Below the pieces are notes generated by a model that saw only the letters and a list, made by a program, of their open reading frames with translations, made no database searches and had not been told where the DNA came from. DNA of 40,807 nucleotides from a virus: IMG/VR virus record IMGVR_UViG_3300031687_001240, positions 1 to 40,807 of that record; one strand, given 5' to 3'. Of the stretch, positions 1-9,638 are shown piece by piece. The number at the start of each line of letters is the position of its first letter. The stretch's first letter is position 1. Both the position numbers and the translations under genes were made by a program.

Positions 1-108
1 ACGTGCTAATTTTAATCCATTGCTATTACACAGACTTGATATGTCTTTAAAGTCTACACCAGCAACTGGAAAGTCTTTGTAACTTTTAATATAATGTTTA
101 ATTTTCAT
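1..108 (-). CDS. apt: Adenine phosphoribosyltransferase, N-terminal part (window edge)
   Basis: The minus strand opens at an ATG ending at 108 and stays open to the window edge (36 codons). The start reads MKIKHYIKSYKDFPVAGVDF and continues KDISSLC. This fits the N-terminus of adenine phosphoribosyltransferases (pattern I..IPDFP.PGI.FKDI). The family condenses adenine with PRPP to AMP, a cytoplasmic purine-salvage step. The PRPP-binding loop lies outside the window and cannot be checked. The ATG overlaps the stop of the upstream oxygenase (TAATG), so the two genes are translationally coupled. Family assignment rests on the N-terminal motif alone; another type-I phosphoribosyltransferase is possible. 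Confidence 0.72.
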   Translation of the reverse strand, partial: MKIKHYIKSYKDFPVAGVDFKDISSLCNSNGLKLAR

Positions 109-968
109 TAATAACTCTGTGCTAATCTGTTCATTAAGTATTGCCTACTTTCGATAGGTTTGTATTGATCAAGTTTAATCTTAGATAAATTTTGTACTAT
201 TGTTCCAGGTTCTGGATCAACAAAGTGTGCCATACTATATCTTGGTGTATGTATATGACTATTAACTACTCTGTGTTTTGTACTTACAAAATAATCGTTA
301 GTCCAACGCTGTAGTAAGTCGCCAATATTAACAACTACTCCATCATTTGCATACGGGACCGGGTGCCATGTTTTTTGTAGGTCTTGGACTTGGAGCCCAG
401 GAACATCATTAATTTGCCAAAGTAAAGTAATAGTACCATAGTCACTATGTTCTCCTATTCTCATTTGTTTATGTTCTAATGGACCATCATATGCAGGATA
501 ATGTATAACTCGAGTTGTGTTATACGGTTTTATATGTGCTTTAGTTAATAATGATCCTGTATCTAAAATCTCATCAAACTTTTCTAATATTTTTAATGTA
601 AGTCTATCTGCAATATCAATAGTCTGTAATGCTGTTGCTTTAAATCCGTTTAAAGTAGGCCATAATTCACTAGGCATTCTACTATTATTATAATTAAAGC
701 TTTCTTTCATATCTTTTGGCGCGTCTGGATCTACATTTTCTGCGCCCATAACTGTATAACCTAGATTGTTTTCAGCTTGATATTTGTATTCGTTTTTCTT
801 TTCTAAATCTTGCTTAAAGAATTCTTTCATTAAATCAAACCAAACATTCATTGTGGTTTGATCTTTATTTTGTAGTGTGTTAGTGAAAACTGCAAAGCCT
901 ACAGTCGTATAAGCTTTGCGTATTTTTTCCAGTACATTCGGACCTTTAAAATCAATTACTGGAATCAT
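108..968 (-). CDS. 2OG-Fe(II) oxygenase, isopenicillin N synthase-like
   Basis: A 286-residue protein of the isopenicillin-N-synthase/2-oxoglutarate-Fe(II) dioxygenase superfamily. The iron-binding triad is visible as H174 and D176 (GEHSDYGTITLL) and H232 (STKHRVVN). The 2OG-binding Arg is in TPRYS (R243). An N-terminal DIOX_N-like segment starts MIPVIDFKGP. All catalytic residues are present and the length is normal for the family, so it should be active. The substrate cannot be read from sequence. It lies between a phosphoribosyltransferase and a nucleoside-type binding protein, which suggests a purine or related compound (inference). It follows the BMP gene by 2 nt and overlaps the next gene, so the three form one operon. 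Confidence 0.88.
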   Translation of the reverse strand: MIPVIDFKGPNVLEKIRKAYTTVGFAVFTNTLQNKDQTTMNVWFDLMKEFFKQDLEKKNEYKYQAENNLGYTVMGAENVDPDAPKDMKESFNYNNSRMPSELWPTLNGFKATALQTIDIADRLTLKILEKFDEILDTGSLLTKAHIKPYNTTRVIHYPAYDGPLEHKQMRIGEHSDYGTITLLWQINDVPGLQVQDLQKTWHPVPYANDGVVVNIGDLLQRWTNDYFVSTKHRVVNSHIHTPRYSMAHFVDPEPGTIVQNLSKIKLDQYKPIESRQYLMNRLAQSY

Positions 969-970
969 TT

Positions 971-2041
971 TTAATTACCAGGTACTTTAGCATCGATGCC
1001 TTCAACATAGTACATCATACTATTTAGATGTGCATCATCAGCAATTTCGCCGTCTTTTAATTGTAACTTGCCATTGTTGTCTTTGATAGGTCCAGTAAAA
1101 GCATAGTACTTGCCATTCTTAATACTTTCTTTTATCTTAGCAGCATGTGCTTCAACGTCTGCAGGCATATTTGCAAACGGTGCCATTTCAACAGTGCCAT
1201 CAATCATACCACCAAAGTAGTCTCCTGACTTCCATGTACCGTCTAATACTGCTTGTACTCTTGCAATATAGTAAGGTGACCAGTTGTCAATAGTTGCAGT
1301 TAACTGAGCTTTAGGAGCAAATTTCATTTGATCTGATGCTTGTCCAAATCCAAATTTACCTAATTTTTCTGCAACTTGTAATGGTGAAGGTGAATCTGTA
1401 TGTTGAGCAACCATATCACAACCTTGTGCAATTAAAACTTTTGCAGCTTCGCCTTCTTTAACAGGATTGTACCAAGTGTTTACCCAAATAATATCGATAT
1501 CAACATCTGGATTTACGCTCTTAGCACCTAAGTAATATGTATTAATTTCTCTGATAACTTCAGGAATAGGAAATGCACCAACATAACAAATCTTATTAGT
1601 TTTAGTCATCATGCCAGCAATAACACCTTGTACATGTCTTGCTTGATATAATCTTAATCCATAAGTTGATAAGTTAGGTCCTTGTTTGTATCCTGTAGCA
1701 TGTTCAAATTTTACATTTGGAAATTCTTTTGCAACTTTTACCATACTATTCATGTAACCAAAAGAAGTTGCGAATATAATATCCATACCTTCCATAGCCA
1801 TTGACCGCATAACTCTTTCTGCATCTGGACCTTCTGATACAGATTCAATGTATTTAGTTTTGACTTTATCTCCAAAATGTTTTTCAACATCTTGTCTTCC
1901 AATGTCGTGTCTATATGTCCATCCATGATCGCCAGTAGGGCCAACATAGATAAATCCAATTTTAATTTTTTCAGCTGAAAAAGCCGAAAAACAGAACAAA
2001 GATGCCAGTGTCGCCACTGCCGCGATGGTCTTCATATTCAT
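971..2041 (-). CDS. BMP/PnrA-family ABC transporter substrate-binding protein
   Basis: A 356-residue periplasmic binding protein of the BMP (basic membrane protein, PnrA-like) family. Residues 1 to about 23 are a Sec signal peptide (basic MNMK, hydrophobic core, FSA before EKIKIG). There is no lipobox cysteine, so it should be soluble in the periplasm. Family signatures include GFIYVGPTGDHGWTY, GPDAERVMRSMA, FATSFGYMN and AQHTDSPSPLQVAE. Known members bind purine nucleosides for ABC import. The two permeases and ATPase are absent here, so it would have to work with host transporter parts, as phage PstS is proposed to do. A strong ribosome site (AGGAGA, 7 nt before ATG) precedes it. Confidence 0.93.
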   Translation of the reverse strand: MNMKTIAAVATLASLFCFSAFSAEKIKIGFIYVGPTGDHGWTYRHDIGRQDVEKHFGDKVKTKYIESVSEGPDAERVMRSMAMEGMDIIFATSFGYMNSMVKVAKEFPNVKFEHATGYKQGPNLSTYGLRLYQARHVQGVIAGMMTKTNKICYVGAFPIPEVIREINTYYLGAKSVNPDVDIDIIWVNTWYNPVKEGEAAKVLIAQGCDMVAQHTDSPSPLQVAEKLGKFGFGQASDQMKFAPKAQLTATIDNWSPYYIARVQAVLDGTWKSGDYFGGMIDGTVEMAPFANMPADVEAHAAKIKESIKNGKYYAFTGPIKDNNGKLQLKDGEIADDAHLNSMMYYVEGIDAKVPGN

Positions 2042-2053
2042 AATTATCTCCTG

Positions 2054-2659
2054 TTAACGTACTCTAGAAATAGAGCCGTTTGGTTTTGCTAGGAATGCTT
2101 CAAAGGAAACATCCGGATAGTCTTTTTGTAATGAATTAAACATTTTTAAATTTGACATAGCATCATCAAATAATCTTATTCTTTTGTATATTTTTTGATC
2201 TAAATATTTTTTAAAAATGACTTTCTTGTTATCTGCTGCTGGACCAGTTCCAAGATTGCCAGCACGTTCAACATAGATTTTATCTATGTCAATTCCTTGA
2301 TTTCTAAATGTATCTAGAAATGTTTTCTTATTATCAAAGTTAGGTCTAGCTGTTACAATAATAACTTTTGATCCTGCCTTTGTAGCATTCTTAAGTATCA
2401 TCTTAACTTTGTTAATCATTCTTGCTATTGGTGTGGAAGTCTTTTGAAAAACTTCAGCATTTTTAAATTCACCAAAATCGTATTCTTCACCAGATTTTTT
2501 CTTATAAGTGTTAAATTCTTGGTTATCAAGCTTCTTGATAATTTTACCGTTTTTAACTATGTGTACTTTTGCTTTAGTAATAAACATAGTTTCATCTATG
2601 TCAAATATAGTTAAACCTTTTCCGGCAGCTTCTTCTAAGTATGTTTTAAAATTTTTCAT
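2054..2659 (-). CDS. HAD-superfamily phosphatase with capsid-targeting-like N-terminus
   Basis: A 201-residue HAD-fold hydrolase. Motif I is FDIDETMF (nucleophile D20, acid/base D22), motif II is IVTARP (T103), a lysine is near 145, and motif IV is LFDDA (D165, D166). The substrate is unknown; nucleotide or polynucleotide-end phosphatases are typical in T4-like phages. The first residues, MKNFKTYLEEAAGKG, lie ahead of the HAD core and resemble the T4 internal-protein capsid-targeting peptide (MKTYQEFIAEA). They include a possible gp21 cleavage point, LEE/A. No Shine-Dalgarno precedes the ATG, and a promoter -10 box lies only 9 nt upstream, so the transcript may be leaderless. Confidence 0.82.
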   Translation of the reverse strand: MKNFKTYLEEAAGKGLTIFDIDETMFITKAKVHIVKNGKIIKKLDNQEFNTYKKKSGEEYDFGEFKNAEVFQKTSTPIARMINKVKMILKNATKAGSKVIIVTARPNFDNKKTFLDTFRNQGIDIDKIYVERAGNLGTGPAADNKKVIFKKYLDQKIYKRIRLFDDAMSNLKMFNSLQKDYPDVSFEAFLAKPNGSISRVR

Positions 2660-2668
2660 TATAGTTAT

Positions 2669-2697
2669 ATTATACCATAGTTTTATTGAAAAGTAAA
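2669..2697 (-). promoter_or_regulatory. Early-type sigma70-like promoter upstream of the HAD gene
   Basis: On the minus strand, -35 TTTACT (2692-2697), a 17-bp spacer ending CTATGG, then a perfect -10 TATAAT (2669-2674). The spacer closely matches that of the promoter before gp45. The predicted start is at about 2662, only 2-3 nt from the ATG at 2659. Confidence 0.7.
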
Positions 2698-2704
2698 GGA
2701 CTTT

Positions 2705-3169
2705 TTAATATTTTATTGTATGTAGGGGTACTTTTTCTTTTCTATCTTGTACACCATGCGTTAATCTTGTGTTACCTGCCAATAAGTGTTTATGACCAGA
2801 TTTAATATGGTGTAAGATAATAGGTTTAGTCATTGGTTTCTTATGAGCGTTATCGTATTGACTAGAAACTCTATTAGCTTTAGCTTTTTCAATTTCTGGA
2901 TTTCCAAGTATACCTTTTTTATTGTTAACATCGGTATTTCCCATCTTGTGCAGATTCGAATCTGAATGATGAATGTGAGTTGTAGTTGCACTCTTCATTG
3001 CTTTATGAAAGTTTGCTGGAGTAGATAGGTGTTTAAGCTGTTTATGAACATGTTGAGGAAACGCAGTCTTAGGAGCTTGCATCTGAGTATGAACTTCATC
3101 ATGTTCATCAGTGTGATGTGGATTAATCCATTTCTCATTAATATTTAAATAAGTTTTAAATTTTTCCAT
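2705..3169 (-). CDS. His-rich protein with ParB-like GNTR motif, unknown function
   Basis: A 154-residue protein that I do not recognise as a named family. It is unusually rich in histidine, with clusters near residues 18-25 and 90-95. The C-terminal part reads HHIKSGHKHLLAGNTRLTHG, which resembles the GxxR-type nucleotide-binding motif of the ParB/sulfiredoxin fold. Several T4-like phages carry small proteins ending in this motif. The N-terminus MEKFKTYLNINEKW matches that of the neighbouring HAD protein (MKNFKTYLEE), so both may carry a packaging signal (inference). The start follows an AGAGGTTA ribosome site just after the preceding gene. Confidence 0.6.
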   Translation of the reverse strand: MEKFKTYLNINEKWINPHHTDEHDEVHTQMQAPKTAFPQHVHKQLKHLSTPANFHKAMKSATTTHIHHSDSNLHKMGNTDVNNKKGILGNPEIEKAKANRVSSQYDNAHKKPMTKPIILHHIKSGHKHLLAGNTRLTHGVQDRKEKVPLHTIKY

Positions 3170-3170
3170 A

Positions 3171-3434
3171 TTAACCTCTATAAATTACATTTATATGATC
3201 TTCAAACTGTTCAACTTTTTCTAGTCTATTAGGCCAAAGGATATATTCTTTTTCTGGATTCTTTTTAAGATTATTAAGCAAAGGAATGATAGCATTATAT
3301 AATTTATCGAGTGTATCTTGTGCAGATGTTGCCATCTGTTCAGCATCATTTACAGAGTTTTGCGTCTTCTTTACTACATCTAACTCATCTTCAGTTACAG
3401 CAGTAAATCCAAAATCAAAATCTAAATCAGACAT
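3171..3434 (-). CDS. Small conserved acidic protein, unknown function
   Basis: An 87-residue acidic protein beginning MSDLDFDFGFTAVTEDEL. A helical, probably coiled-coil middle (about residues 20-55) is followed by a short tail, LWPNRLEKVEQFEDHI. The FDFGFTAV opening recurs in small uncharacterised proteins of marine T4-like phages, as far as I recall. No catalytic motif is visible. It is tightly packed between lysozyme, whose stop overlaps its ATG by one base, and the GNTR-motif gene. It therefore sits in the late transcript started at the TATAAATA box at 3901. Confidence 0.6.
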   Translation of the reverse strand: MSDLDFDFGFTAVTEDELDVVKKTQNSVNDAEQMATSAQDTLDKLYNAIIPLLNNLKKNPEKEYILWPNRLEKVEQFEDHINVIYRG

Positions 3435-3877
3435 TATGCTAAGGCTTTCATTCTTTTAACAAGTCTACCAGCTCTATTAGGAACTTGTCTATACCATGCA
3501 GAGTCTATCATTTCGTCTGCAGCTTTATTCCAATCTTGAGAATCAACACCAGCTTTCATACCTTTAAATTTTGAAAGCCTAGGTCTTCCCATGTTAAACA
3601 TCATGTTTGCTATAATCATTTGACATTCTTCTGGCAAGACATTAAAATCGTTATATAATCGCTCACAATCTGCGAGCACGGTTTGTACGTCGTTATTAAA
3701 GGCTTCGATGACTCTGTCTTTTGAAATAGTTGTTCCAATTTCTTGTCCATGCTCTGGATCTGAATCGATAACAAGATGACCAATACCAAAAGTAGCGTAG
3801 CCAAGATGATCATTGTATATTTCATGTTTAACACCTTCATCCAATTCAAGTTCTTTTCTTAAGTTTTCTATATTCAT
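3434..3877 (-). CDS. e: T4-type lysozyme (GH24 endolysin)
   Basis: A 147-residue muramidase close to T4 lysozyme. The catalytic triad aligns as E14 (LDEG), D23 (YNDHLGY) and T29 (YATFGIGH). The C-terminal WYRQVPNRAGRLVKRM matches the T4 lysozyme end. It cleaves the MurNAc-GlcNAc bond of peptidoglycan to lyse the host or open the wall. The open frame extends 16 codons further upstream. I chose the inner ATG at 3877 because AGGAGG lies 7 nt before it and the alignment with T4 starts there. A terminator and a late promoter directly precede it. No lysin-repeat or signal peptide is seen. A tail-associated role (gp5-like lysozyme) is less likely, because the gp5 flanking domains are absent. Confidence 0.9.
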   Translation of the reverse strand: MNIENLRKELELDEGVKHEIYNDHLGYATFGIGHLVIDSDPEHGQEIGTTISKDRVIEAFNNDVQTVLADCERLYNDFNVLPEECQMIIANMMFNMGRPRLSKFKGMKAGVDSQDWNKAADEMIDSAWYRQVPNRAGRLVKRMKALA

Positions 3878-3900
3878 ATTATAACCTCCTTGTAAAATAC

Positions 3901-3908
3901 TATTTATA
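3901..3908 (-). promoter_or_regulatory. T4-type late promoter box before lysozyme
   Basis: TATAAATA on the minus strand, identical to the T4 late promoter recognised by gp55 sigma. The lysozyme ATG lies 24 nt downstream with AGGAGG between. It follows an intrinsic terminator, so lysozyme starts a new late transcript. Confidence 0.75.
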
Positions 3909-3910
3909 AT

Positions 3911-3933
3911 AAAAAAGGCGGGCACTGCCCACC
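3911..3933 (-). terminator. Intrinsic terminator after the 75-residue gene
   Basis: On the minus strand a 7-bp stem (GGTGGGC / GCCCGCC, one G-T pair) with loop AGT is followed by six T residues. It lies between the gene ending at 3959 and the lysozyme late promoter. Confidence 0.8.
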
Positions 3934-3958
3934 TAATTTATTTTGATATCTTACAATA

Positions 3959-4186
3959 TTACTTTGTTTTATATTCTTCAGTAGTTTTTTCATTTAATTG
4001 CATAATGATATGCTTTAAATCTTCGTCTCTTCCATAGAAACCAAGCTGTTGAAGTTGTCTTGCTACTTCTGCATTCGCGGCCATTTGTCTACCTTTTATG
4101 ATAGATTTAATTGTATTTTTGAATGAGCTAGCAATATATTCACATACTTGACATGTGATGTTGTAAGTTGTAGTTAAAGTTGTCAT
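3959..4186 (-). CDS. Small hypothetical protein
   Basis: A 75-residue protein that I do not recognise. Cys pair CQVC (residues 12-15) lies near the start, followed by a basic helix (FKNTIKSIIKGRQMAANAEV) and a C-terminal helix ending in charged residues. A single CxxC is not enough to claim a zinc site. It is downstream of hsp20, 13 nt after its stop, with AGGAAAAGTA as ribosome site, and its transcript ends at the terminator at 3911-3933. Confidence 0.5.
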   Translation of the reverse strand: MTTLTTTYNITCQVCEYIASSFKNTIKSIIKGRQMAANAEVARQLQQLGFYGRDEDLKHIIMQLNEKTTEEYKTK

Positions 4187-4199
4187 TTACTTTTCCTCG

Positions 4200-4610
4200 T
4201 TAATTAATTGAAATTTTACGAGGTCGCTTCTCTTCTGGTAGGACTACCTTTAATTGAACAGATAGTATGCCGTCCTGAATGTCAGCACCATTTACTTCCG
4301 TATATTCGGACAGTCTAAATGATCTTGAAAACTTTCGAGCACTAATACCTTTATGGACATACGCGTCTTGTTCTCTACGCTTAGGTCTATTACCAATAAT
4401 GTTCATAACGTGGTCTTTTACTTCAATATCGATATGTTCTTTTTTGAATCCGGCTACTGCCATCTCAATTTCATATTTCATATTGTCGTGTTTAACTACA
4501 TTATATGGTGGGTATGTATCTTTCGCGTGGCTATGAATATTTTCTAGCTGGTCGAAAATGTGATCGAATCCCAAAAAAGCGTTTCTTGGGTATAAAAAGT
4601 TCTTAGTCAT
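4200..4610 (-). CDS. hsp20: Hsp20 small heat-shock protein
   Basis: A 136-residue small heat-shock protein of the IbpA class. The alpha-crystallin core runs from about residue 38 (PPYNVVKHDNMKYEIEMAVAGF) to 128, with the diagnostic DGILSVQL strand and a C-terminal I-x-I anchor (ISIN). Such proteins hold unfolding proteins in oligomers without ATP. They are common in marine T4-like phages, where they are thought to assist virion protein folding. A strong AGGAGG lies 5 nt before the ATG. An approximately 100-bp AT-rich leader with a stable hairpin precedes it. Confidence 0.93.
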   Translation of the reverse strand: MTKNFLYPRNAFLGFDHIFDQLENIHSHAKDTYPPYNVVKHDNMKYEIEMAVAGFKKEHIDIEVKDHVMNIIGNRPKRREQDAYVHKGISARKFSRSFRLSEYTEVNGADIQDGILSVQLKVVLPEEKRPRKISIN

Positions 4611-4641
4611 AATTGCCTCCTATTGACTAGCAAGGTTGTGC

Positions 4642-4663
4642 GAGACCCGTTTATCGGCGCCTC
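4642..4663 (-). promoter_or_regulatory. Hairpin in the hsp20 leader
   Basis: The minus strand can fold GAGGC-(G)-CCG / CGG-GUCUC, an 8-bp stem with one bulged G and loop AUAAA, 32 nt upstream of the hsp20 start codon. The surrounding 106-bp gap (4611-4716) holds no gene and no clear promoter. An AT-rich run (about 4663-4681) lies upstream. A regulatory role is inference. Confidence 0.35.
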
Positions 4664-4716
4664 TATAATAATATATATAGTATCTTTGTTTTTAATTTAA
4701 ACTAGTAGATGAAAAT

Positions 4717-4920
4717 TTAACAGCTGCCAAATGGAAGTCGTGTTTGCTTTTCCCATGCTTTTTCAAATGCTTCAGAAGTGCGAGGTAAGCGTTCACAGTT
4801 GCCCCATAGTCTTTTAATATAACTATTAACTGTGCGGTCTATGTCTTTCCTACTCCATTGACTTGGTATCAAGTGACCTTTTACAGCATAGAAGATTTCA
4901 TTTTCATCTTTACTAGTCAT
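4717..4920 (-). CDS. Small hypothetical protein downstream of regA
   Basis: A 67-residue protein of unknown function with aromatic and basic content (SQWSRKDIDRTVNSYIKRLW). No known motif is visible. Its ATG overlaps the regA stop by 4 nt, so it is translated from the regA message. In T4, DNA polymerase gene 43 occupies this position after regA; here it does not. Confidence 0.55.
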   Translation of the reverse strand: MTSKDENEIFYAVKGHLIPSQWSRKDIDRTVNSYIKRLWGNCERLPRTSEAFEKAWEKQTRLPFGSC

Positions 4921-5336
4921 TTTGTTCCATTACCAATGTTATATTTTGGACATAATTCCCATTCATCTTTATCTTTAAAAGATATTATTTTAATTTGTCT
5001 TAATGGAGCTATAGGTTGTAGTTGTTCTTTATTTACTACAGTTAATAATCCCCAATCACTCATTAATGTTGCTATAGTGTTTCTACGGCCGACATCATTT
5101 TCTTCGAGATTGGACTTTTTTCCGTCTAATAAAAAGAGCTCCTTAAAGTGCACGATAAAATATCGTCCTTGCTTATGAAGTATATGGCACGATTGATAAA
5201 GCTTATTATCTTTACGTGACGCGACACCTATTCTAGTTAATGTCTCTCTTATTTTAAGAAAATCGTCTGGCTCGTTTAATGTAACCTCTAGCATATTTGC
5301 TGGGTTCCATTCTACAATGTTATTTTCTTGTTCCAC
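4917..5336 (-). CDS. regA: RegA translational repressor
   Basis: A homologue of T4 RegA, which binds initiation regions of early mRNAs and blocks ribosome loading. Recognisable blocks are LNEPDDFLKIRETLTRIGVA, LYQSCHILHKQGRYFIVHFK and the end DEWELCPKYNIG. The frame opens with GTG at 5336 inside gene 62. T4 RegA aligns from M15 (MLEVTLNEPDDF), whose ATG is at 5294. Neither start has an ideal Shine-Dalgarno, so the extra 14 residues are uncertain. Order 44-grx-62-regA matches the T4 replication cluster apart from the insertion. Confidence 0.92.
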   Translation of the reverse strand: MEQENNIVEWNPANMLEVTLNEPDDFLKIRETLTRIGVASRKDNKLYQSCHILHKQGRYFIVHFKELFLLDGKKSNLEENDVGRRNTIATLMSDWGLLTVVNKEQLQPIAPLRQIKIISFKDKDEWELCPKYNIGNGTK

Positions 5337-5700
5337 CTTTTGCCACCTTATTTTTCAATTCATTTATTTGATCAGTGGAAAGTAGAGGTAAAATCTGTCG
5401 GGCTTTTTCGTTGCTATAGCCATAATATGTTTTAACCACATCCAAGTCACTAATCTGTTCAGGTTTGAACCATTTAGAAAACCTTTTACGTTTTCTAATT
5501 ATATTTATAAGAAACGAATATTGAAGGTGGTTATCTAGGTGATGATTACGATTCATCTCATTTGCAGCTAACACTGTATCAGGAAAATATGATAGTTGCC
5601 TGTTAATCATGTATGGTAAATATGCTTTTTCAGTAATATCATCTACCATGATATTTTTCTTAGTGTAATTTATTGAGTTCGAGTATTCAAATGGATTCAT
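5320..5700 (-). CDS. gp62: gp62 clamp-loader small subunit
   Basis: A 126-residue protein matching T4 gp62 by position and by blocks such as NPFEYSNSINYTKKNIM, EKAYLPYMINRQLSYFPD and AANEMNRN. gp62 forms the one-copy subunit of the 44/62 clamp loader that places the gp45 ring on primer-template DNA. It is shorter than T4 gp62 (187 aa), as usual in marine relatives. The stop lies inside the regA 5-prime region, which suggests coupling. A TATAGGAT site precedes the ATG. Confidence 0.88.
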   Translation of the reverse strand: MNPFEYSNSINYTKKNIMVDDITEKAYLPYMINRQLSYFPDTVLAANEMNRNHHLDNHLQYSFLINIIRKRKRFSKWFKPEQISDLDVVKTYYGYSNEKARQILPLLSTDQINELKNKVAKGGTRK

Positions 5701-5708
5701 TGTATATC

Positions 5709-6011
5709 CTATGCGCTTTTAAGAGGAGCCCAGTTTTCTACTCCACCTACATAATTATCATAATCAATTTCAGCTTCTATGTGGTTTTTAGTGAGCTCTG
5801 TTGTTGGCAGTTTATTTAGATGTGTGTTATGCCAATATAATTGTGGTACAGTTCTATGGCCTTTTTGCTTCATAAAATCTTTTGCAAAAAGATCATAGCT
5901 TATATTGATTTCTCTATATTGATAACCCCAATCTAACAGTTTCTTTTTTAAAATCTGGCAATAACCACAATCGTCTTGAGTGTATAGTGTTAACTTAATT
6001 GAATTGAACAT
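5709..6011 (-). CDS. Glutaredoxin-like thiol-disulfide protein
   Basis: A 100-residue thioredoxin-fold protein with redox site C15-GY-C18 (DDCGYCQILK) and the cis-proline loop HRTVPQLYW (T54-V55-P56), followed by a C-terminal tail. This is the glutaredoxin pattern. In T4-like phages such proteins (NrdC) reduce ribonucleotide reductase. Here the gene is inserted between clamp-loader genes 44 and 62, starting 17 nt inside gene 44. Its GGAGG ribosome site lies within the last codons of gene 44, so it is co-expressed with replication proteins. Confidence 0.88.
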   Translation of the reverse strand: MFNSIKLTLYTQDDCGYCQILKKKLLDWGYQYREINISYDLFAKDFMKQKGHRTVPQLYWHNTHLNKLPTTELTKNHIEAEIDYDNYVGGVENWAPLKSA

Positions 6012-6933
6012 CTGACATTACCTCCGTTAAACATGCCACCACATTAAGTTCATGGTCAGCAACAAATGCATTTTTATATTGATAGTCTGCAAGCAAAAGA
6101 ACAAGTTGCGGTATTGATTGTGGTGCAACTTTATCTATCATTCTGTCGTAAATAGCTCTAAAAATAGCGCTTGCATCTGTATCTATATTATTAACTACCC
6201 AAGATCTCATACCTTTAAAATTTTTATTTTTTAAATGAGAGAACAAATCATCAAAGTTTTTATCTTGAAGGTTAGCTACAACACCTGAATCGATACGGCC
6301 ATTAATAGAATATCTTTGTAATTCATTTAGCACTCTACGCCAATCAGGTGCAAATTTCATTATAAGTTCAGCTAAAGGTTTGTCGTCATATTCAATTTTT
6401 TCATTATCTAAAATAGTTTTACATCTAGCCATAAAGGATTCACACAATTCAATCATAGATTTTTTAGATGTGTTAAATTCATATACACCACATCGTGAAT
6501 GTAATGGCTCGATAATTCTGTTTTTAAAGTTGCATGTAAGAATAAATCTGCAGTTATTGGAAAACTCTTCTATAAAACCGCGTAACGCTGGTTGTGTAGA
6601 TTGTGGATTGAGATAGTCGGCTTCATCTAATATAACAACTTTATAACCACCTTGTAATGAAACAGATGATGCAAATTGTTTTATCTTAGTTCTTAACGTA
6701 TCAATATTACCTTCTTCAGAACCGTTGATAAGAATAAAATCGCAACCGAGCTCATTGCATAGAGCTCGGGCGATTGTGGTCTTACCTAAGCCGGCAGTAC
6801 CAGTGAACAACATATTAGGAAGTTCACCACCGTCGACTATCTTTTGGAAGGTTAATTTTAAAGATTCAGGTAAGATTGTATCTGCTACAACCTTAGGCCG
6901 GTACTTCTCACACCATAGAAACTCAGCACTCAT
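5995..6933 (-). CDS. gp44: gp44 clamp-loader ATPase subunit
   Basis: A 312-residue AAA+ ATPase of the clamp-loader family (T4 gp44, 319 aa). Walker A is GTAGLGKTT (residues 45-53), Walker B is ILDEAD (101-106), sensor 1 lies in LTCNFKNRI and the trans-acting SRC motif is 146-148. Four gp44 plus one gp62 open the gp45 ring using ATP. The opening EFLWCEKYRPK is the typical clamp-loader start. The coding sequence holds a perfect 8-bp inverted repeat at 6746-6769. Confidence 0.96.
   Translation of the reverse strand: MSAEFLWCEKYRPKVVADTILPESLKLTFQKIVDGGELPNMLFTGTAGLGKTTIARALCNELGCDFILINGSEEGNIDTLRTKIKQFASSVSLQGGYKVVILDEADYLNPQSTQPALRGFIEEFSNNCRFILTCNFKNRIIEPLHSRCGVYEFNTSKKSMIELCESFMARCKTILDNEKIEYDDKPLAELIMKFAPDWRRVLNELQRYSINGRIDSGVVANLQDKNFDDLFSHLKNKNFKGMRSWVVNNIDTDASAIFRAIYDRMIDKVAPQSIPQLVLLLADYQYKNAFVADHELNVVACLTEVMSDVQFN
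6746..6769. repeat. Perfect inverted repeat inside gene 44
   Basis: CCGAGCTC, 8-nt loop, GAGCTCGG. The stem is GC-rich in an AT-rich gene and falls on codons for ARALCNELG just after the Walker A motif. It would form a strong mRNA hairpin. Function unknown. Confidence 0.6.
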
Positions 6934-7178
6934 TATTTCTTTGGTTCCGCTTTAGTTTCTTCTTTAGTTTCACTTTTATCATTCATTGCATCTTCTTGCT
7001 GAATAGCTTCACTTATTTGAATGATTTGAATGGCTTGGTCTCTTAAGCCACCAATAGTGGAAAGCTCTTCGCCTTTAAATCCACCTCTTTGTGTAACAGC
7101 ATCAATTACTGCAACAATGCTTCTACTTGCTTTGTTTGCAAGATCTTTTAATTGTTTTATATTATCCGTATCTGACAT
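6933..7178 (-). CDS. Small conserved protein between genes 45 and 44
   Basis: An 81-residue helical protein beginning MSDTDNIKQLKDLANKASRS. A conserved-looking centre (TQRGGFKGEELSTIGGLRDQ) precedes a Lys/Glu-rich tail. As far as I recall, small proteins like this sit between the clamp and clamp-loader genes of marine T4-like phages. No function is known to me. The frame is open to 7217, but I place the start at 7178 because GGAG lies 9 nt before that ATG and it follows the gp45 stop. The gp44 ATG overlaps its stop by one base. Confidence 0.7.
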   Translation of the reverse strand: MSDTDNIKQLKDLANKASRSIVAVIDAVTQRGGFKGEELSTIGGLRDQAIQIIQISEAIQQEDAMNDKSETKEETKAEPKK

Positions 7179-7182
7179 ATTA

Positions 7183-7860
7183 TTATGCTCCGTATGTTGA
7201 AGATTTTTCAAGTGCAATCCAATACTTTAAAGGTATTTCTTTATTTTTAAATTGCGTTATTAATTTAGAAGATATTTCTACTTCATAATCACCTGGTAGG
7301 ATCTTAAGATTAGAAATACTTATGATAAAGTTAAACACAGCGTCTTGTTTAAACTCGCCATCAATGTCAATCGAAAATGCATTTGATGTTGGATTTTTAT
7401 TCTCAAGAACTGATAAGCTTAATACACCATCTTTTGCTTGTATTGATACTTCGGTGTGACCTAAAGTTGATGCAGCTTTTTTCAATTTGTTTAGTGTATC
7501 ATTATCTAATACAAACTTAACATCAGCCTCTGGCATAGTAACATCTTTTGTAGGTGCCGTTAATGTTTCTTCGGCAGCATAAAAGTAATTTACTTTAGAT
7601 CTACCAGATGCATCAGAAACAGTAACAGAGTGATCTTCGAATTTTAAACTAGGAGAATTGACTAATCCTATTACTCCAATAAATTCGTTTAAATCGTATA
7701 TGCCGAAATCTTTTTCGAAACTTTCGGTAACATCGGCAGTTGCTACTACGTTTCTTGCTTCACTAATAGTTTTAATATTCGATCCAGATTTAATCAATAT
7801 ATTTTGATTAATGCCTGAAAAGTTTCTTAAAACCTGTAAAGTGCTTTCACTTAATTCCAT
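7183..7860 (-). CDS. gp45: gp45 sliding clamp
   Basis: A 225-residue DNA polymerase processivity clamp (T4 gp45, 228 aa). Typical segments are LRNFSGINQNILIKSG at the N-terminus and ISNLKILPGDYEVEISSKL near the C-terminus. The trimeric ring tethers the polymerase and, with gp55, also activates late promoters. It is preceded by AAGGAAGG and by a promoter that matches the phage's early set, so it is the first gene of the transcript 45-44-grx-62-regA. Confidence 0.95.
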   Translation of the reverse strand: MELSESTLQVLRNFSGINQNILIKSGSNIKTISEARNVVATADVTESFEKDFGIYDLNEFIGVIGLVNSPSLKFEDHSVTVSDASGRSKVNYFYAAEETLTAPTKDVTMPEADVKFVLDNDTLNKLKKAASTLGHTEVSIQAKDGVLSLSVLENKNPTSNAFSIDIDGEFKQDAVFNFIISISNLKILPGDYEVEISSKLITQFKNKEIPLKYWIALEKSSTYGA

Positions 7861-7895
7861 AATTAATAACCTTCCTTTTTGTATTTTATAATAAT

Positions 7896-7924
7896 ATTAT
7901 ACCATAGATTTGTGCAAATGTACA
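7896..7924 (-). promoter_or_regulatory. Early-type promoter before gp45
   Basis: On the minus strand, -35 TGTACA (7919-7924), 17-bp spacer ending CTATGG, -10 TATAAT (7896-7901). The gp45 ATG lies about 30 nt beyond the expected start site, with AAGGAAGG between. Confidence 0.8.
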
Positions 7925-7937
7925 CAGTTAATTTCAT

Positions 7938-9638
7938 TTAATTTTTTATCTTAGAAAAATTTCTATCTTTTACAAATTCAATCTTGGACTCAAACTTACC
8001 ATCTAATATGTCTCCTTTATGAGATATAATAAAGGTATTACTATTAGCGTCCATCATGGATAGTATTTTTAATAAGTTTTCAATACCATCATGATCAAGT
8101 GATGAATCAAATGTTTCATCAAGTACCAATAGATTAGTTGATACTGAATTTTTCATTTTAGCGATCTGCCTCCATGTAAATAATAAAGATAAATCGATCC
8201 TTTGCTTTTCGCCTTCACTAAAAGAATCATAAGTAAAATCATCTCTGTGTCTAGACTTTATTGTTTCATTAAAATTTTCATCTAAGTTGAAAGAAACGAA
8301 GAAGTCCAGAGTTTGCAAGAACTGATTAACAAGTTTATTAATAGTAGGCAAATACTGTTTAATAATTTTTGTCTTAATACCAGTATCTCTTAACATTTCA
8401 GCAATAACATTGTTATAACCGAACTGTTCGTTTAACTTAAGCTTCTCTTCAAATAAACTTTCTTTATCGCTATTCATAGTTTCTAAGTCGTTACGTGCAC
8501 CAGTTAGATCAGCCGATACTTCACTTTCTAAATACTTTTGTAACTCATCGTTGTTTTGATTTACTGAAACGATCTCTCTATTATTTGCATTAATAGTATC
8601 TGTTTTTTCTTTTACGTCTTTAATGATTTCTTCTAATGCTAATATGTTTGTGTCAATAGAATTACCATTAACTTCTACTGTATTTAGAGATGATTGGACT
8701 TTTTGAGCTTCACTTCTTGTTTCTGAAATAAGTTTATCTTTGTTAGCTATAGGCTGATCACATGTAGGACACTCATCATTCTTTTCTAGAAACATACCAC
8801 GTTTTGCAACTGATTTCATTTCTTGTTTTATAGTAGCAATTTCACCTATAACTTTATTCTTTTGTGTTTGTAGTTTTTTTAGTTCATCAATTGCTGTACT
8901 AGATTCGAGTGCTAAACTCAATTCACTATTTTGTATTTGAAGTTTCTTTATTCTTTCTCTTGCAGTTGCAATTTGATTTTCATATTTGTTTCTATTCTCT
9001 TTGGTAAGAGCAGCGATATCTCTAATATATTTTGCTTGCTGTTCTATTTTACTTTTTACGATATTAGTATCATTACTTATTCTAGTAATGCTTTCTTTTA
9101 ATATAGAATTTCTTTCTCTTATAATAAGATTCATCTTAGAAAAAATATTAATATCTAGGAGATCTTCAATAACATTCCTACGATGGCCTGCATTCAGTTG
9201 CATAAAAGGTATGAAAGAAGATGAACCTAAGACAACTACTTGATGAAAACTTTTATGATTAAGTTTTAATATATTTTGCTCAAGGATCTTCTGATATTCT
9301 AATGAATGAGAAGATTGGTTGATCATAGCACCATCTTTCCATATTTCAAATATGTTTGGCTTTATGCCTCTTATGATTTTAAACTGTGCTGCACCTACTG
9401 AAAACTCTACTTCAACTACTGCTTGCTTTTGATTTATAGAATTAACTAATTGGTTCTTCATAATTTTACGATGAGGTTTGCCAAACAATGCAAACGATAT
9501 AGCATCTAACATGGTTGATTTACCAGCACCATTATGACCAACAATAAGTGTTGACTTATCTTTATTCAAAGGTATCTCAGTGAAAGAATTTCCAGAAGAT
9601 AAAAAGTTCTTATATTTTATAGATTTAAAATTTATCAT
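7938..9638 (-). CDS. gp46: gp46 recombination ATPase (Rad50-like)
   Basis: A 566-residue SMC-type ATPase, partner of gp47 in processing DNA ends for recombination-dependent replication. Walker A is GHNGAGKST (34-42). Long coiled coils flank a zinc hook CPTC (290-293). The ABC signature is SFSEGEKQR (472-480) and Walker B is LLVLDETFD (503-511). All functional motifs are intact. The stop/start overlap with gene 47 (4 nt) implies coupled synthesis of the complex. A promoter-like site inside gene 47 may add expression. Confidence 0.97.
   Translation of the reverse strand: MINFKSIKYKNFLSSGNSFTEIPLNKDKSTLIVGHNGAGKSTMLDAISFALFGKPHRKIMKNQLVNSINQKQAVVEVEFSVGAAQFKIIRGIKPNIFEIWKDGAMINQSSHSLEYQKILEQNILKLNHKSFHQVVVLGSSSFIPFMQLNAGHRRNVIEDLLDINIFSKMNLIIRERNSILKESITRISNDTNIVKSKIEQQAKYIRDIAALTKENRNKYENQIATARERIKKLQIQNSELSLALESSTAIDELKKLQTQKNKVIGEIATIKQEMKSVAKRGMFLEKNDECPTCDQPIANKDKLISETRSEAQKVQSSLNTVEVNGNSIDTNILALEEIIKDVKEKTDTINANNREIVSVNQNNDELQKYLESEVSADLTGARNDLETMNSDKESLFEEKLKLNEQFGYNNVIAEMLRDTGIKTKIIKQYLPTINKLVNQFLQTLDFFVSFNLDENFNETIKSRHRDDFTYDSFSEGEKQRIDLSLLFTWRQIAKMKNSVSTNLLVLDETFDSSLDHDGIENLLKILSMMDANSNTFIISHKGDILDGKFESKIEFVKDRNFSKIKN

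Follow-up and report, generated by a model that had tools for sequence, protein, structure and literature searches.

Cyanophages carry PstS, and phage genes for phosphate uptake are known. In these and other viral nutrient-uptake systems, the virus contributes a lone exported binding protein, which is presumed to feed an importer supplied by the host. Complete importers, to our knowledge, seem unusual in phages.

For purine bases, the closest described binding proteins are bacterial. AtzT, from Pseudomonas sp. ADP (PDB 6pi5, 6pi6 and 6pii), binds guanine with a KD of 0.11 uM and adenine with a KD of 2.5 uM, with values of at least 620 uM for other nucleobases (PMC6834077). The adenine in the related Brucella melitensis structure 3s99 is a modelled ligand (PMC6834077). 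Among oxygenases, the closest solved structure is that of the fungal thymine-7-hydroxylase (PDB 5c3p-5c3s), in which Phe292 and Tyr217 sandwich the base (PMC4787775).

Here, relatives of both kinds of protein are found side by side in a phage. The DNA, 40,807 bases long with 34% GC, comes from an IMG/VR virus record; the whole of this stretch is called the window. At one end it holds a cassette that is probably the purine counterpart of the phage PstS-like scavenging genes, one carried by many marine phages. As with PstS, a lone exported binding protein would feed a host importer. It departs from PstS in that a purine base would take the place of phosphate, that an oxygenase is dedicated to the task, and that an adenine phosphoribosyltransferase (Apt) often follows. 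No description of a phage BMP-family protein or of purine-base uptake by phages was found among CC-licensed papers in PMC, a scope outside which most subscription papers fall.

Layout of the cassette

The genes lie on the minus strand. The first in order (971..2041, minus strand, 356 aa) encodes a solute-binding protein of the BMP/PnrA family (PF02608), here called BMP, which by profiles, homology and pocket mapping is of phage type, predicted to be exported and predicted to bind a purine base (adenine or guanine). After a gap of 2 nt comes a 2-oxoglutarate/Fe(II) oxygenase of the DIOX (IPNS-like) superfamily (108..968, minus strand, 286 aa), assigned by profiles and residues, with a purine base as its predicted substrate. 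The stop codon of the oxygenase overlaps, in the sequence TAATG, the start of the third gene, of which the contig end leaves the 5' end, 36 codons long (1..108, minus strand). The earlier note on this DNA had read these as three consecutive, coupled genes, and its coordinates and strand were right.

An AGGAG site of the Shine-Dalgarno type, read from the sequence, stands ahead of the BMP start codon (2048..2052, minus strand). The next gene upstream of BMP (2054..2659, minus strand) encodes a HAD-like protein, for which no pathway role is claimed; it resembles three families, all below their cut-offs. This protein has a DxDxT-type motif, stays below Pfam cut-offs and has no PHROG match at 1e-15. 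Elsewhere, the window carries genes for a T4-type major head protein, portal, sheath, terminase and clamp, together with SbcD-like and Hsp20 genes.

The 36-residue fragment of the third gene gives, by itself, weak yet consistent matches to NCBIfam Apt models (best E 5e-6). A second IMG/VR contig, 3300031628_000669 (L003), matches window positions 4-8165 with 99.99% identity over 8,162 bases and continues beyond position 1, and so provides the extension that the note had proposed as a check. It supplies a complete frame of 176 aa (L003:8058-8588), which exceeds two NCBIfam Apt equivalog cut-offs (171.5 against 170, and 163.3 against 125) and falls below those of the other listed Apt models. Solved Apt structures are the top matches in a search with a phage-Apt profile. 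The L003 protein contains DDLMATGGT, which we take to be the PRPP motif. By these profiles the truncated gene is an Apt gene, as had been proposed from its start alone. The name “adenine phosphoribosyltransferase (Pta)” appears in PMC7785012 in connection with acetate, a usage that is unrelated, and PNRA in PMC10165816 is the name of a funder. Downstream of Apt, L003 has a small ORF and then a gene for a family-B DNA polymerase (cluster c8).

Neighbours in viral and cellular genomes

How constant the cassette is can be judged from its relatives. Scanning viral sequences with BMP found 196 related stretches; the top 80 were used (the BMP-selected loci), a choice that biases the sample toward close relatives. 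A second scan, with an oxygenase alignment, used the best 80 of 198 stretches, 62 of them newly fetched (the OXY-selected loci). Adjacency was counted per locus, in loci offering at least 300 nt of room for BMP or the oxygenase, or at least 800 nt for Apt.

Counted this way, the oxygenase lies within 300 nt downstream of BMP in 70 of the 74 BMP-selected loci with room (best 80 of 196), a frequency that places their adjacency beyond chance. Conversely, BMP precedes the oxygenase in 55 of 59 OXY-selected loci with room (62 new, from the best 80 of 198). De-duplication, which reduces 149 viral loci to 121, leaves BMP and oxygenase together in 108 of 112, and Apt present in 27 of 92. Other genes separate BMP from the oxygenase in six loci of the full viral set.

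Apt is found within 1 kb in 27 of the 52 BMP-selected loci with room (best 80 of 196). The conserved core is BMP and the oxygenase; Apt is optional. Thus, of the three-gene unit originally proposed, the BMP-oxygenase pair, whose oxygenase had been left without a role, is what is conserved, and Apt is not a constant part of it. Upstream of BMP (best 80 of 196, counted as cluster members), a HAD-like gene occurs in 29 of 80 loci, a lysozyme gene in 17 and a GTP cyclohydrolase I gene in 10, a variety implying that the pair moves as a unit. The GTP cyclohydrolase I genes (Pfam match; L015:7216-7905 and other c16 loci) lie directly upstream of BMP.

The family is sizeable, with 196 stretches in that one viral scan, and no member was seen among annotated phage isolates. 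Of 50,697 phage records, BMP matches 14 and the oxygenase one, all at below 40% identity and all unannotated; BMP has no PHROG match.

No BMP-type permease, xanthine dehydrogenase (XDH), deaminase or other purine-catabolism homologue was found in the 149 viral loci, which are flanks and partial contigs rather than whole genomes. Matches to importer components there were to the ATPase only, in four loci, and the two inspected belong to a separate NMT1-type transporter. In these (L061:9120-12546 and L056), an NMT1/THI5-type binding protein, an ABC ATPase, a permease-like ORF and an arylsulfotransferase-like gene lie between BMP and the oxygenase. The viral contigs L170 and L210 join them by ATPase match.

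The cellular relatives keep different company. The set examined consists of the best 80 loci from named genomes, among the matches listed. Their flanks were counted by simple ORF calling and clustering, so that the counts are lower bounds, with XDH-type genes checked against Pfam in L090 only. Among these 80 loci, the importer ATPase occurs in at least 65, the two permeases in at least 70 and at least 68, and an XdhB-like gene in at least 32. Adenosine-deaminase-type genes are present in at least 12, guanine deaminase in at least 10, 8-oxoguanine deaminase in at least 8, and hydroxyisourate hydrolase and urate-oxidase-type genes in at least 14 each.

In 9 of these best 80 cellular loci listed (seven from Pseudomonas, one from Paucimonas and one from Vibrio), the gene right after BMP encodes a DIOX oxygenase. 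In four of the Pseudomonas loci, an adenosine-deaminase-type gene follows the oxygenase, and an 8-oxoguanine deaminase gene lies upstream. This Pseudomonas operon (for example, L138 and L165) resembles the phage cassette in its BMP subfamily, in its adjoining DIOX oxygenase and in having a purine enzyme. It differs in that its oxygenase comes from another branch, that an ATPase and permeases are present, and that the deaminase stands in place of Apt.

These contexts invite a reading in which the pair supplies nitrogen or energy, by pushing imported purines into host catabolism through xanthine dehydrogenase and deaminases, with Apt as an add-on in some phages. The cellular orthologues do sit within purine-catabolism operons, Pseudomonas does pair BMP and an oxygenase with deaminases, and Apt is absent from about half of the BMP-selected loci able to show it. 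Against this, the gene found most often right after the oxygenase in BMP-selected loci is the one for the salvage enzyme Apt (27 loci, the next commonest gene having 4), and the catabolic genes were not found in the 149 viral loci. We would therefore give this reading a modest chance, well short of an even one.

The oxygenase

The oxygenase scores above the cut-offs of PF03171 and PF14226. Its Fe triad (H174, D176 and H232) and 2-oxoglutarate residues (R243 and S245) are invariant in 26 of 26 aligned sequences and have the HxD...H and RxS pattern of DIOX/IPNS-like enzymes. The view that this is an intact IPNS-like oxygenase therefore holds.

What it acts upon is less directly read. The best structural match of the predicted model (mean pLDDT 84) is thymine-7-hydroxylase (Z 31, 274 aligned residues, rmsd 2.0, 35% identity), tied with 3oox, a protein without an assigned function (Z 30.1, 277 aligned, rmsd 2.3); a VIA-align comparison does not clearly separate the two. 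Phe292 and Tyr217, the base sandwich of thymine-7-hydroxylase, correspond to F249 and Y177. By sequence alignment, Asn87 is kept as N68, Glu122 becomes Asn92 and Asn294 becomes Asp251. Thus, of the base-binding set (Asn87, Glu122, Arg190, Tyr217, Phe292 and Asn294), the Arg, Tyr, Phe and Asn87 are kept and the full set is not.

The phage enzyme therefore shares with thymine-7-hydroxylase its Fe, 2-oxoglutarate and base-sandwich residues, and is set apart from it by the two replacements, in residues that hydrogen-bond the base, and by its purine context. Because two base-contact residues differ, thymine-7-hydroxylase function was rejected for the phage oxygenase. The sandwich residues also occur in many other DIOX proteins, so they argue only weakly for a base as substrate. 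The enzyme may, of course, reveal a new purine reaction.

A tree of oxygenases (71 rows, including 17 phage oxygenases, picked for spread) does not place the Pseudomonas-type oxygenase closest to the phage one, although its branches are long and its deep support is weak. Orthology of the phage and Pseudomonas oxygenases, which was considered, is not supported by this tree. This makes two independent oxygenase-BMP pairings likelier, with one BMP subfamily apparently joined by two lineages of oxygenase. That a different oxygenase branch is paired with this subfamily in Pseudomonas and Vibrio supports a joint purine role for the two proteins.

Movement between phages and cells

The BMP tree holds 27 phage BMPs, five copies from SAR116 cassettes and 54 other rows, picked for spread and rooted for drawing only; one bacterial row (L269) duplicates another (L298). 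The phage rows fall into a single supported group (100/99), together with the five SAR116 copies and a copy from the Rhodobacteraceae genome SB2. Since the cellular copies nest inside a varied viral group, transfer from phage to cell is favoured, with the reservation that the root serves for drawing only.

The SB2 copy (L090:1836-11065) is instructive. There, a phage-type BMP gene ends an operon of XdhA/B/C-type genes, an ATPase and two permeases. No match to the oxygenase was found in SB2 at E 0.001; the two, then, need not act together, an argument against both being strictly required. The SB2 operon, together with the lack of a permease in the 149 viral loci (partial contigs), suggests that phage BMP probably feeds a host importer.

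Of 121 genomes of the SAR116 order, 96 match BMP at 1e-60 and five carry both BMP and oxygenase of phage type. In genomes G336 (L298:9443-12284) and G370 (L300), the pair forms an insert of about 2.5-2.8 kb that lies at tRNA-Arg(ACG) and has a repeat of the 3' end of this tRNA on its flank (in G336, 52 nt at 94%); genomes G299 and G366 (empty sites L334 and L335) have the tRNA-Arg without the adjoining pair. The only long ORFs within the insert are the oxygenase and BMP, and no integrase was seen in it. The sequence beside the pair resembles viral DNA upstream of BMP. In genomes G001 (L303:3325-6249) and G342 (L299:3487-10566), other direct repeats, 105 and 258 nt long, enclose the pair, which lies near an amidohydrolase gene; G001 also carries a native importer operon of ATPase, two permeases and BMP. 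Two caprolactamase-like (hydantoinase-type) genes also lie inside the repeats of G342. We judge the SAR116 oxygenase-BMP cassettes to be phage-derived.

Two further candidates were set aside. The SAR116 single-cell contig L089, among the best 80 cellular loci listed, carries a pair of phage type; it was considered as a phage contig and rejected, since its neighbours are bacterial and the pair therefore lies in a cell genome. A xanthine phosphoribosyltransferase gene beside the pair in G336 and G370 might have been an independent link to purines. It was rejected as a resident gene: whether or not they carry the cassette, all 30 of the SAR116 gpt loci examined have the order gpt-rnpA (with yidC in loci long enough).

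SAR11, whose genomes the earlier note had proposed to search, is not supported as host: SAR116 and one Rhodobacteraceae genome are where cellular copies of the phage-type genes turned up, and the capsid comparison is not specific to SAR11. The window's capsid protein is 66.8% identical to that of phage C48C1, 60.9% to those of Methylophilales phages and 60.5% to that of HTVC008M. Being closer to C48C1 and similar to the Methylophilales phages, it supports no conclusion about the host. C48C1 shares the order gp44-Hsp20-DNA polymerase with the window and is without the cassette.

The oxygenase might, in principle, stand outside purine supply, modifying nucleotides, DNA or another metabolite, and adjoin BMP for co-regulation. 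Phage oxygenases can serve DNA modification, the purine substrate is a prediction only, and SB2 has a phage-type BMP without the oxygenase. The oxygenase, however, adjoins BMP steadily while other neighbours vary, the two genes reached SAR116 together, and this BMP subfamily is accompanied by another branch of oxygenases in Pseudomonas and Vibrio. These observations make a role outside purine supply unlikely.

The binding protein and its ligand

BMP matches PF02608 over nearly its full length (residues 26-309; E 1e-49, 169.6 bits against a cut-off of 24.1). Its N-terminus, read by eye, has the basic start, hydrophobic stretch and AxA-like site of an export signal; BMP is thus predicted to be exported. 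It scores 60.4 bits against NCBIfam ABC_BMP_B6 (NF047927), below the equivalog cut-off of 400.

Sequence comparison with solved structures ranks 3s99 first (413 bits) and AtzT second (364 bits), with a drop to the next, Lbp (81 bits), guanosine-bound according to its structure title. The predicted model of BMP (mean pLDDT 81) gives the same ranking, with 49-54% identity to 3s99 and AtzT and 15-26% to the listed nucleoside-bound entries; its lower structural matches include entries titled with guanosine, adenosine or inosine.

The ligand of AtzT is contacted by Tyr45, Ser97, Phe98, Glu165, Trp194, Asn218 and Asn220 (PMC6834077), and these residues, as given there, map to W41, S93, F94, E161, W190, H214 and D216 of BMP. 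All seven are unchanged across the aligned phage BMPs (29 of 29) and identical to those of 3s99, and every one of the 86 rows in the BMP tree has them. Against AtzT, three of the seven differ (Tyr45 to Trp, Asn218 to His and Asn220 to Asp); where AtzT has Asn and Asn, phage BMP has His and Asp, in agreement with 3s99.

Phage BMP thus resembles AtzT and 3s99 over its full length, in fold, in contact positions and at about 50% identity in structural comparison. It is unlike them in being encoded by phages, in having no importer genes found nearby, and in having Glu165 where most cellular proteins have Gly. At this position (AtzT-169), Glu is present in 27 of 27 phage rows and 5 of 5 SAR116-cassette rows, and Gly in 47 of the 54 other rows, so that the ligand may differ.

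By its relatives and its base-contact residues, BMP is a member of the AtzT/3s99 free-purine-base subgroup and not of the nucleoside-binding PnrA group, the binding itself being predicted. From homology, pocket residues and operon context, the best-supported ligand is a purine base, probably of adenine type, with a nucleoside less likely. The earlier note had named a BMP/PnrA-type protein, of a kind known to bind purine nucleosides. The family stands; the nucleoside is the less likely ligand, since the nearest solved relatives bind free bases (guanine in AtzT, and the modelled adenine in 3s99). With free bases as ligands, a nucleoside hydrolase ahead of Apt would be unnecessary.

A nucleoside ligand would, of course, draw on the shared Pfam family and on the weaker match to guanosine-bound Lbp. 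The free-base subgroup is nevertheless far closer, all pocket residues of the 3s99 type are kept, and a free base is what Apt uses. We regard nucleoside binding as very unlikely. That BMP acts by occupying the host's purine importer, altering host physiology or blocking a competing phage that uses it, would suit a binding protein found without its importer in 149 viral loci, but leaves the oxygenase and Apt unexplained and sits poorly with a pocket conserved in 29 of 29 sequences, so that it is barely credible.

How the cassette might supply purines

The reading that we rather favour is that of a phage nutrient-scavenging cassette for purine bases. Here, the infecting phage would make an exported binding protein that captures a free purine base, of adenine or guanine type, in the periplasm. 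BMP would hand the base to a purine ABC importer of the host, a part that PstS is presumed to play for phosphate. Some of the imported purines would then be oxidised in the cytoplasm, or stripped of a substituent, by the phage oxygenase. Apt, where present, would join adenine to PRPP to give AMP. The original proposal of purine import and salvage survives in this form, with a real Apt, a purine-base pocket and relatives in purine operons behind it, and with free bases in place of nucleosides. We infer that the purines would serve phage DNA synthesis and so benefit replication.

A more specific version assigns the pair to capture and repair. BMP would take up methylated or otherwise substituted adenine or guanine bases from degraded nucleic acids, the oxygenase would strip the substituent, and the freed base would be consumed by Apt in phages or by the deaminase in Pseudomonas. 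This fits the consumption of adenine downstream in both. As SB2 has no oxygenase and the idea is drawn from sequence, it is put forward tentatively, with a low if appreciable probability. If true, salvage by demethylation of purine bases would be common to phages and bacteria, and would move between them as a compact cassette.

More generally, if the scavenging cassette acts as proposed, the resources that marine phages manage while infecting also include nucleobases and organic nitrogen from outside the cell. Since genes of the cassette are now part of SAR116 and Rhodobacteraceae genomes, and in one case provide a complete purine operon with its binding protein, the ligand, the compatibility with the importer and the reaction of the oxygenase are directly testable. 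In 10 of the 80 BMP-selected loci, other uptake genes lie within three genes downstream of the oxygenase, PstS-like in four (L058, L075, L077 and L081) and Na/Pi cotransporter-like in six (L023, L024, L060, L064, L074 and L080); phosphate-uptake genes so close by suggest nutrient-uptake islands.
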